DNA of 21,263 nucleotides, taken from a virus. Numbering within the stretch: position 1 is the first letter of the stretch; the number at the start of each line of letters is the position of its first letter. The DNA is taken from the IMG/VR virus record IMGVR_UViG_3300032294_000527, positions 1 through 21,263 of that record; one strand, 5' to 3'. The position numbers were made by a program, and so were the translations under genes. The notes beneath the pieces are model-generated. The model was not told the DNA's origin. It did not search any database and saw only the letters and a list, made by a program, of their open reading frames with translations. Below are positions 11,070-15,249 of this stretch, piece after piece.

Positions 11070-11431
11070 GCTTCACCTCTTGCTTCTAACCATCTACCAA
11101 ACTTACTCAGTTCAGGCATTTTTCGATAAAAATCTTCGGTTGCTTTTTGATTCAAAGATTTAACTCCATTTTCCAAATCAGATTGAACACAAGACCAATA
11201 TTCATCCGTTATGGCCTTACGCTCTGCTTTTACAGCATCCTGAAGTTCTTTGATGTGGTCGTTTACTTTTTTGATTACTGGCGCATTTTTCTCAGCGATT
11301 TCTTGGCGAACCTTGTCCTCTACCAGTTTGGCAAAGGTCACAAGGCACATAGTTCCAGCAATAAAGCCGCCATTTCCCAACGGCACACCGCCAGCCTCTC
11401 TAGCCATCTCAATGATTTCCTCTTGCGTCAT
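11066..11431 (-). CDS. Small helical phage protein, paralogous N-terminus to its neighbour
   Basis: 121 aa from the ATG at 11429-11431, which overlaps the previous stop (ATGA) and has GGGGTGG just upstream. A TTG four codons earlier is less likely. The N-terminus MTQEEIIEMAREAGGVPLGN is shared with the 74-aa neighbour. Then comes TFAKLVEDKVRQEIAEK and a long predicted helix (VNDHIKELQDAVKAERKAI), ending FGRWLEARGEA. No enzymatic motif is visible. It sits in the early/middle leftward operon and its role is unknown. Confidence 0.6.
   Translation of the reverse strand: MTQEEIIEMAREAGGVPLGNGGFIAGTMCLVTFAKLVEDKVRQEIAEKNAPVIKKVNDHIKELQDAVKAERKAITDEYWSCVQSDLENGVKSLNQKATEDFYRKMPELSKFGRWLEARGEA
11397..11431. 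repeat. Direct repeat copy B
   Basis: Partner of 11035-11069, with 32 of 35 bases identical. It encodes the MTQEEIIEMAREA start of the 121-aa protein. See copy A for interpretation. Confidence 0.7.
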
Positions 11432-11907
11432 AAACCACCCCAAAAGTTAGATTTATAGTCTTTCCACCTAATTCCACGCTTTATCTCCCACACGACCCGT
11501 TTAGAGACCCCATAGCGCTCTGCAAGTGCTTTCTGGGTGTCAGGGCTTAACCGAATTAAATTAGCCTTCTCTACGCTCAATTTACCCCGTTTACGGCTGC
11601 TTTCTGAAATCTTTGCCGCCCTCACAGGATTTGAGGCATAAGACTTGTCCATTTTCTCGGCTAAGACCTTTCGGCTCACCGCCCTCATGTGTCCTTCAGC
11701 CAAGCAGAGTTTGTTTTTACAGATTGTTGTGTAAACATCACCTTTGCGCTTTGACTTTCCGTAGTGAATCCCGATAACTGTCCTGACATTCCAAGTCTTT
11801 TGCGAAAACCGAATGGTCGGATAGCCGTTGTGGTTCAAGGTAGATTTCCAAATCAGGCAGTCTCCATCTTCCTCAGTTCTGCTTAACAGGCGCTGAAGTG
11901 AGGGCAT
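11428..11907 (-). CDS. HNH-homing-endonuclease-like protein with HTH, possibly degenerate
   Basis: 159 aa from the ATG at 11905-11907. The frame is open to 12048, but that extension lies out of frame within the well-formed neighbouring gene and is a Ser/Thr/Gln-rich shadow. Residues 15-35 (GDC17LIWKSTLNHNGYPTIRF) and 62-80 (IC63KNKLC68LAEGHMRAVSRK) follow the phage HNH pattern C-x-W...C-x-N-x-x-C-x-x-x-x-H. The His that usually precedes the CxN segment is replaced by Thr, so nuclease activity may be lost. Residues 121-148 (SPDTQKALAERYGVSKRVVWEI) look like a helix-turn-helix. It may be a free-standing homing endonuclease or a derived DNA-binding protein. Confidence 0.6.
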   Translation of the reverse strand: MPSLQRLLSRTEEDGDCLIWKSTLNHNGYPTIRFSQKTWNVRTVIGIHYGKSKRKGDVYTTICKNKLCLAEGHMRAVSRKVLAEKMDKSYASNPVRAAKISESSRKRGKLSVEKANLIRLSPDTQKALAERYGVSKRVVWEIKRGIRWKDYKSNFWGGL

Positions 11908-12283
11908 TGATCGCTCTGTTGAGGGTTTGGGGTGGAATTCTTGTCCATTGTTCTTGGCAGATTTCGAGGGCGTTGTCGATTGTGATTGTGTACTCTCGTT
12001 TCCACTTGAATCCTGATTCTGAGCATCGTAAAAGAATGTGTCCTGCACTTTTTAGCTTTCTGTATTCAACTGAGTCTGTCTGCTTGAGTTCTTCTAAACA
12101 AGTCATCATTGCATAGACGGGAAGGGAAGTAGCGACCATCTCGCTTGAGGCATCTTCACCATCGTCTAAAAGGAATATTGAGATTCTGTGGCTTGTTATT
12201 GATTCTTTTAGTTTCTGCTTGGCAATCGCTCTGGCAATCGGATTCATGCCAGTATTGCGATTTACTTTCGTTACAAACTTCAC
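11873..12283 (-). CDS. Conserved phage protein, unknown function
   Basis: Up to 136 aa. The outer start is GTG, overlapping the TGA of the upstream 35-aa gene. An inner ATG (12245-12247) gives MNPIARAIAKQKLKESITSH, the form in which I remember relatives. Both ribosome-binding sites are weak. The protein contains ISIFLLDDGEDASSEMVATS, VEYRKLKSAGHILLRC and YTITIDNALEICQEQWTRI. It is a compact alpha/beta-looking protein of a type recurrent in phages of betaproteobacteria, without assigned role. It overlaps the HNH-like gene by 35 nt. Confidence 0.65.
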   Translation of the reverse strand: MKFVTKVNRNTGMNPIARAIAKQKLKESITSHRISIFLLDDGEDASSEMVATSLPVYAMMTCLEELKQTDSVEYRKLKSAGHILLRCSESGFKWKREYTITIDNALEICQEQWTRIPPQTLNRAINALTSAPVKQN

Positions 12284-14288: not shown

Positions 14289-14501
14289 TCAAAAAACATC
14301 TTCAACCTCTGTATATGGTTTTTGTGGCGGTGTTTTTGGCGCTTGAAGTTTAGCCTTACCCCATTGGTGAAAACTGCACATCGGCCTGTCAATCTGGATA
14401 GACCAAGGCTTTCCGCAACCAGGTACGCTACACAAAAGACGCTTGAATTCATCATCGTCTGTTGGCTTTGAAACATTGTTTTTGAAGTTAGTTAGAGCCA
14501 T
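14289..14501 (-). CDS. Small zinc-ribbon-like phage protein
   Basis: 70 aa. C24-SVPG-C29 with later C43 and H46 (RPMCSFHQWG) form a plausible Cys3His zinc site. The SVPGCGKPWSIQ and RPMCSFHQWG segments are familiar from phage proteins next to DUF1376 genes, where they may help primosome loading or bind nucleic acid, though no function is established to my knowledge. The ATG overlaps the 3' end of the DUF1376 gene by 14 nt, and the tail ends EVEDVF. Confidence 0.7.
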   Translation of the reverse strand: MALTNFKNNVSKPTDDDEFKRLLCSVPGCGKPWSIQIDRPMCSFHQWGKAKLQAPKTPPQKPYTEVEDVF

Positions 14502-15249
14502 GATATTTACCCTCTATGATTTTTGCAAAATTGCTAGGTCTAAGAATCCACTCTAAATCAGCAGCAAAAGAGCGACCAGATTTATCGTTCACCCTTCCCG
14601 TCAAGAATTTTGATGTGGCAATGTGTTGGAAAAAGTCAGCAAACCAATTCAGCACATCATTCGCTTGAACCTGCTTTTCTTTAGACAGTTCTTCAGCCAC
14701 CTCACGCCATCTTTGGCGCAGAAAACCTTTTCTGGTGTCATTCCAAACCTCAACTCTACGCAATGTAGGCAAGTGCTGGTGATACAAGCCAATCACTTCA
14801 TCATGTTGGCAATTTGGCAAAAGACCACCGCTAGGTGGGCATATAGATATATTGTGTTCTGTGTCTTGTGTTCTGTGTATTGTGTTATGTGTAGCATTGC
14901 TTTCGGATTGCGTTTGCAATGCGTTCGCATCTTTAGCTTTGCTCCATCTAGCTTTAGCGCTCTCGCTTGCCTTGGTAGATTTCTCACCAGCCTTAGAAAT
15001 TTCCTTGTTTGCACGATGATTTACCCATCCGTCTGGAGTGCGCTCAAAATACTCTTGCAAAACAATCGCAATGCAATCGGTATGCGAACGCATACGAATC
15101 TGCCTTGCAGTCTCGTTAATATCAAGTGGAATTGGTGTTTCGTGAAGATAGTACCAATCGAGCAATCGCCGATAAGTTAAATCTTCCATTTCGGAAAGAT
15201 GTTCCGTGTGACTTTTGTAGTCACCAATGTTGAATTGGTAATAGTGCAT
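14488..15249 (-). CDS. DUF1376 replication protein (YdaU/O-like initiator)
   Basis: 253 aa. Residues 1-82 (MHYYQFNIGDYKSHTEHLSE, MEDLTYRRLLDWYYLHETPI, NHRANKEI) are the DUF1376 domain of phage replication initiators/loaders. A low-complexity linker spans about 88-145. The C-terminal domain (145-250) has VEVWNDTRKGFLRQRWRE, WFADFFQHIATSKFLTG and DLEWILRPSNFAKIIEGKY, typical of the same family. The linker DNA carries three tandem 14-bp repeats and palindromes, suggesting that the gene includes the origin it acts on. Start ATG with GCGAGAG upstream. Confidence 0.85.
   Translation of the reverse strand: MHYYQFNIGDYKSHTEHLSEMEDLTYRRLLDWYYLHETPIPLDINETARQIRMRSHTDCIAIVLQEYFERTPDGWVNHRANKEISKAGEKSTKASESAKARWSKAKDANALQTQSESNATHNTIHRTQDTEHNISICPPSGGLLPNCQHDEVIGLYHQHLPTLRRVEVWNDTRKGFLRQRWREVAEELSKEKQVQANDVLNWFADFFQHIATSKFLTGRVNDKSGRSFAADLEWILRPSNFAKIIEGKYHGSN
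14841..14851. other. AT-rich tract beside iteron-like repeats
   Basis: ATATAGATATA directly abuts the three 14-bp repeats. In lambda-type origins an AT-rich stretch next to the initiator-binding iterons is where strands open. Here it is short, so this is only supportive. Confidence 0.4.
14852..14893. repeat. Three tandem 14-bp iteron-like repeats
   Basis: The units are TTGTGTTCTGTGTC (14852-14865), TTGTGTTCTGTGTA (14866-14879) and TTGTGTTATGTGTA (14880-14893). They have no spacers and differ by one or two bases. They fall in codons 119-133 of the DUF1376 gene. Because 14 is not a multiple of three, the three copies are read in three different frames, so the repetition is not protein driven. 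Candidate binding sites for the DUF1376 protein. Confidence 0.8.
14894..14930. repeat. Inverted repeat and palindrome next to iterons
   Basis: GCATTGC (14894-14900) is inverted as GCAATGC (14916-14922). The second arm overlaps the palindrome ATGCG-TT-CGCAT (14919-14930). The same palindrome recurs at 15082-15093 as ATGCG-AA-CGCAT, again near a GCAATGC (15068-15074). Confidence 0.65.
15068..15093. repeat. Second GCAATGC plus ATGCG-AA-CGCAT palindrome
   Basis: GCAATGC at 15068-15074 and the 12-bp palindrome at 15082-15093 repeat the elements found at 14916-14930, still inside the DUF1376 coding region. Confidence 0.6.

Follow-up and report, generated by a model that had tools for sequence, protein, structure and literature searches.

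The window analysed here is a virus record of 21,263 bases, and all coordinates are given in its numbering. On the minus strand, at 14488-15249, it carries a gene for a 253-residue protein, our proposed replication initiator, in which residues 2-84 match the DUF1376 domain (PF07120; E 8.6e-21, 74.6 bits against a curated cut-off of 30.1). PF07120 is the sole Pfam match of the N-terminal domain, where we saw no homology to the N-terminal domain of lambda O, and a Pfam search returned no RepA_N match for the protein. Residues 137-250 match phrogs annotated as "replication initiation protein", "O-like" and "DnaD-like helicase loader", with an E of 6e-15 for this C-terminal part against phrog_345 ("O-like"). 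Pfam and phrog matches place Erf, NinB, MazG and a DNA methyltransferase around the gene, along with a RecE-like exonuclease. No helicase gene adjoins it in this fragment; in relatives, the gene that follows encodes a DnaB-like helicase (L082 and L083, and by annotation L092), a DnaC-like loader (L084) or a primase/helicase (L088). An HNH endonuclease-like gene (phrog_826, 11428-12048), possibly a homing endonuclease, also lies close to the replication region.

The AlphaFold2 model divides the protein into two domains and a linker. The N-terminal domain, encoded at 14938-15249 on the minus strand and proposed to bind the origin, is modelled with a pLDDT of about 95 over residues 11-80 and contains predicted helices at 8-15, 20-36, 44-50 and 57-67, strands at 69-71 and 74-76, and a long helix at 78-104. 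In the model these elements follow one another as they do in a winged helix. A solved relative was sought both by sequence and by fold and none was found; the model had no significant fold match in the PDB, and the weak, non-significant hits included the winged-helix proteins MarR, GntR, RuvB and ORC. Because a significant PDB match is lacking, DNA binding by this domain is proposed from its topology together with the co-inheritance of domain and repeats described below. The linker has a pLDDT of about 50, falling below 50 at residues 116-124. The C-terminal domain (residues 137-250; 14500-14841, minus strand), whose phrog matches make it our candidate for the helicase-recruiting part, includes a predicted helical domain at 149-245.

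Within the linker-coding part of the gene lies a row of six spacerless 7-bp repeats, ACACANN, at 14851-14892 on the minus strand. On the gene strand the units are ACACATA, ACACAAT, ACACAGA, ACACAAG, ACACAGA and ACACAAT; they code for residues 120-133, inside the low-confidence linker, and are our proposed iterons. The initial annotation of this DNA had described three 14-bp repeats. The repeats are real, and the true unit is 7 bp: TRF reports both a period of 14 (3.1 copies, 14850-14893, 90% match) and a period of 7 (5.9 copies, 14852-14892), and a separate repeat search gave three copies at spacings of 14 and 14. With up to two mismatches, ACACANNACACANNACACA has four overlapping matches in the window, all at the array, where 0.06 would be expected. 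Besides the 7-bp unit, the 11-bp repeats adjoining the array and a hairpin just past it had been overlooked in that annotation.

The array is bordered on both sides. Adjoining it at 14893-14925 on the minus strand are three 11-bp repeats (AACGCATTGCA, AACGCAATCCG and AAAGCAATGCT), for which TRF reports a period of 11 at 14894-14929 and which have a counterpart in an 11-bp periodicity in relatives. The flanking inverted repeat noted earlier is present, as GCATTGC at 14894-14900 and GCAATGC at 14916-14922. A motif search located the palindrome ATGCG-NN-CGCAT twice, as ATGCGTTCGCAT at 14919-14930 and, within DNA coding for the DUF1376 domain, as ATGCGAACGCAT at 15082-15093; no other ATGCGNNCGCAT site occurs in the window, where 0.01 would be expected. 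On the other side, the AT-rich tract reported beside the repeats is indeed there (ATATAGATATA, 14841-14852; ATATATCTATAT on the gene strand), a 12-bp stretch proposed from its AT content as the point of melting. Like the palindromes, it is assigned to neither strand. Just past it, at 14825-14838 on the minus strand, is a stem-loop, CCACC-TAGC-GGTGG.

We compared 68 dereplicated genes, the window gene and its viral relatives, which are related to one another so that counts among them are not independent; in 67 of the 68 a 7-bp array occupies the corresponding part of the gene. Two main dialects of the array were found, A (ACACANN, as in the window) and B (ACCANNA). When codons were shuffled synonymously, keeping the protein (300 shuffles per gene), the observed period-7 score was reached at most three times for 78% of the genes. 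A table of codon positions gives the same picture; its genes were collected by protein homology, and the arrays in them were placed solely by their periodicity. In dialect A, repeat positions 1, 2, 4 and 5 are near invariant whether they fall on codon position 1, 2 or 3, and the NN positions vary by 1.2-1.8 bits, including at codon positions 1 and 2 where the residue changes. Dialect B follows the same pattern. The identity of synonymous codons in dialect A genes is 0.77-0.90 over codons 101-130, compared with about 0.4-0.6 over the greater part of the gene; it peaks at codons 107-140, with many invariant codons over 107-132, and in an isolated peak at codons 55-57 that corresponds to the distal palindrome. 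From this profile, the constrained DNA comprises approximately 14830-14931 together with 15082-15093. The earlier suggestion that the DNA itself is kept is thus borne out by the fixed repeat positions, the drifting NN positions and the rarity of matching shuffles. Across DUF1376 genes of relatives the 7-bp periodicity persists while amino acids drift, the opposite of a gene that conserves its amino acids and loses its repeats, and these data indicate that selection acts on the DNA. Because the linker tolerates many residues, the DNA coding for it is free to act as binding sites. We also considered that units might be added in multiples of three to hold the reading frame, an idea left unsupported by the counts, among which 5 and 6 dominate.

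The dialect follows one end of the protein. Trees were compared for 68 genes whose C-termini are homologous: the dialect changes 3 times on the N-terminal tree versus 10 times on the C-terminal tree, and no pair with an N-terminal identity above 70.2% differs in dialect. The last 100 residues of L012 and L014 are identical to those of L053, whereas the N-termini are 57% identical and the dialects differ. These comparisons indicate that the repeat dialect is co-inherited with the N-terminal DUF1376 domain and not with the C-terminal domain, which has been exchanged independently of the array. Some of the residues that best separate the dialects (57, 59, 60, 61 and 65) lie in helix 57-67, before the predicted wing, a separation that is confounded with ancestry. 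Dialect co-inheritance is the ground on which we propose that the putative initiator binds the repeats within its own gene.

The palindromes, too, are distributed by dialect. The initial annotation had one recurring some 150 bp away; both copies stand, with the correction that ATGCGNNCGCAT palindromes are restricted to dialect A. Of 108 dialect A genes, 100 have the motif in the domain-coding part and 99 have it in the linker; the corresponding figures for 118 dialect B genes are 6 and 8. In dialect A the central NN varies while adjacent synonymous sites are fixed, and the codons of the proximal, linker copy are fixed as well. This pattern assigns both palindromes to the dialect A element. Among the dialect B linkers, 44 of 118 have AACGNNCGTT, at offsets from the array that are mostly -16, -27, -49 and -71, an 11-bp lattice. 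In the DUF1376 gene of Vibrio phage 234P9 (L085), around position 356, the linker carries ATGCGAACGCAT three times with a spacing of about 21 bp.

Our best reading of these sequence comparisons is that DUF1376 proteins are phage initiators whose origin would lie in the DNA coding for their own linker. In the window, approximately 14825-14931 is likely the replication origin of the phage, and the palindrome at 15082-15093 is probably part of it. Several DUF1376 proteins would bind the row of heptamers and the flanking palindromes through their winged-helix-like N-terminal domain and would distort and open the adjoining AT-rich tract; the C-terminal domain, judging from its family matches and gene neighbours, would then recruit the replicative helicase or its loader. 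The genes have a mean AT content of 55-56%, and in the first 10 bp past the arrays it averages 68% (A) or 72% (B). Among the matches listed in a scan for arrays that made no use of protein sequence, given in detail below, nearly all the B arrays and most of the A arrays sit in DUF1376 genes, a sign that array and gene belong together. The strongest period-7 stretch of the whole genome falls in the DUF1376 gene in five of six phages and ties for strongest in the sixth. GC skew, for which the initial annotation had suggested looking for a turning point near the array, was computed on six whole phage genomes: the detrended minimum lies 0.2-3.7 kb from the DUF1376 gene in five of the six, and it coincides with switches in gene orientation that confound it. 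We regard a minimum near the gene as suggestive support for an origin.

Origins inside initiator genes are known from several systems. That of lambda lies in the middle of gene O and consists of iterons for the O protein and an AT-rich tract, and in lambdoid phages every iteron has the form of an inverted repeat (PMC7466680). The window gene resembles it in having repeated, here putative, initiator sites that are centrally placed in the gene of the proposed initiator itself and have an AT-rich tract on one side, an O-like phrog match at the C-terminus and, in relatives, a helicase or loader gene next to it. It differs in its N-terminal domain, which is DUF1376, in its repeats, which are 7 bp long, spacerless and devoid of dyad symmetry, and in having separate palindromes in 11-bp phase; the adjacent AT-rich tract is present as in lambda, though short. 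In SPP1, a phage of Gram-positive bacteria with two origins and with a phage-encoded loader and DnaB-type helicase, oriL lies in gene 38, which encodes the replisome organizer gp38, and comprises direct repeats and an AT-rich region (PMC6316719). The likeness extends to direct repeats and an AT-rich region in a gene that is here a proposed initiator gene, and to a loader and DnaB-type helicase as phage genes; it is one of layout, and the Gram-positive host and the two origins set SPP1 apart. In RepA_N plasmids such as pSK41, for which chimeric initiators have been reported, the N-terminal domain binds boxes central in the rep gene, and the origin codes for the central linker (PMC5703833). Repeat boxes central in the gene and a linker coded by the candidate origin are shared with the window, which differs in being a phage gene with another type of repeat and without a RepA_N Pfam match. 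The best reading of the window is that it would work like the in-gene origins of lambdoid phages, SPP1 and RepA_N plasmids, but its N-terminal domain is unrelated and its putative iterons are unusually short. Its N-terminal domain is neither that of lambda O nor RepA_N, and its repeats differ in type from lambdoid iterons. The initial annotation had proposed the logic of lambda with an unrelated DUF1376 initiator, and this proposal gains support from repeats that persist while residues drift and from a dialect that follows the DUF1376 domain. In a full-text search of the literature, DUF1376 was seldom mentioned, and we found no mention of it together with iterons.

The same sites could in principle serve as an operator, the DUF1376 protein or a repressor binding the array and palindromes within the gene to control its own transcription while replication starts elsewhere. 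The paired ATGCGNNCGCAT palindromes, 151 bp apart, do resemble dimer sites able to loop DNA, and co-inheritance with the N-terminal domain fits any site which that domain binds. We nevertheless find an operator unlikely, as 5-8 head-to-tail sites deep in an initiator gene and beside an AT-rich tract are the anatomy of an origin, as in lambda, SPP1 and RepA_N plasmids (PMC7466680, PMC6316719, PMC5703833), and both the C-terminal domain and the genes that follow belong to replication.

An element of the mRNA, in which translation or stability would be governed by an A/C-rich row of repeats and the hairpin after it, was considered in view of two observations. One is the hairpin itself: many relatives have a stem-loop with a 4-base loop a short distance past the array, and its stems differ between genes, with letters changed on both sides, yet keep pairing (CCACC/GGTGG, AAAGAAGG-TAAA-CCTTCTTT, GATGC-TTAC-GCATC and others). 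Of 83 genes, 17 have stems of at least 7 bp, compared with 6 of 499 other segments; stems of 4-5 bp, including the 5-bp stem of the window, are equalled by synonymous shuffles, and the window hairpin taken alone is not significant. The other observation comes from a reverse scan, in which exact five-unit arrays were sought in viral contigs with no protein reference. The matches listed comprise 119 A arrays, of which 99 fall in ORFs with a DUF1376-like domain, and 80 B arrays, of which 76 do so; all 175 arrays in such ORFs lie on the coding strand. Inheritance of the array along with the gene would produce this bias in any case. Palindromes, moreover, are dyad-symmetric sites in DNA, the dialect tracks one protein domain of the same gene, and an Rfam search of the window matched no family, so that an mRNA element seems distinctly improbable. 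Scarcely credible is an expansion of a low-complexity linker or microsatellite with selection, if any, at the level of the protein: the linkers are disordered and rich in T/N/Q/H/P, but the shuffles, the codon-position table and the synonymous conservation point to constraint on the DNA and rule out protein-level linker selection or a neutral microsatellite, and the NN positions are degenerate, unlike the copies of a microsatellite.

Among the matches listed in the reverse scan, five further arrays are recognisable linkers of genes cut by the end of a contig (L206, L224, L249, L277 and L287), and most of the remaining arrays outside DUF1376 genes are simple-sequence repeats; for the array of L120 no DUF1376 domain was found. 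In L186, a degenerate ACACANN array (11271-11303) lies in intergenic, AT-rich, non-coding virus DNA outside any DUF1376 gene; it may represent another origin, or a satellite that shares the same initiator. Heptamers with 11-bp repeats, some of them weaker, were also found in named phages and in prophage-like loci from Vibrio, Acinetobacter, Thalassomonas, Pseudomonas, Colwellia and others. The linkers of the DUF1376 genes of L058, L356 and L092 have 6-bp repeats in place of heptamers, coding for PTPTPT, PVPVPV or SPSPSP, and possibly represent a further repeat dialect.

Proteins that share the C-terminal domain alone (L094, L097, L099 and L100) come from genes without a clear heptamer array, as do many of the distant DUF1376 proteins, among them E. 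coli YdaU and several more. YdaU, from the Rac prophage of E. coli K-12, shares the DUF1376 Pfam domain with the window protein (hhalign probability 99), and its gene, unlike that of the window, has no clear heptamers; it is followed by ydaV, which encodes a putative ATP-binding protein. The Rac prophage has been described as having an active origin, oriJ (PMC3945230). The ydaU gene (L106, 3120-3977) contains two copies of TGTTCAAAC at a distance of about 33 bp, and an inverted copy close by. Because distant DUF1376 genes often lack heptamers, our claim applies to a large subgroup of phage proteins with an MHYYxFNI start, and not to PF07120 as a whole.

More tentatively, phage initiators with DUF1376 might form a large class whose members read a spacerless row of 7-bp units, in which the fixed letters on the coding strand are A and C only, possibly as a spiral of protein on duplex DNA or on a melted strand. 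The DNA-binding domain and the origin would then move together, as a single cassette, from one helicase-recruiting domain to another, by recombination just past the origin.

The origin reading gives DUF1376, a domain carried by many phages and prophages, a concrete function that can be tested, and it offers a short DNA pattern by which the probable origin of such phages may be marked in raw sequence. The co-inheritance of dialect and N-terminal domain offers a natural experiment on two questions: how a proposed initiator keeps its match to its origin through exchanges of other parts, and how one stretch of DNA may serve both as code and as a proposed binding site.
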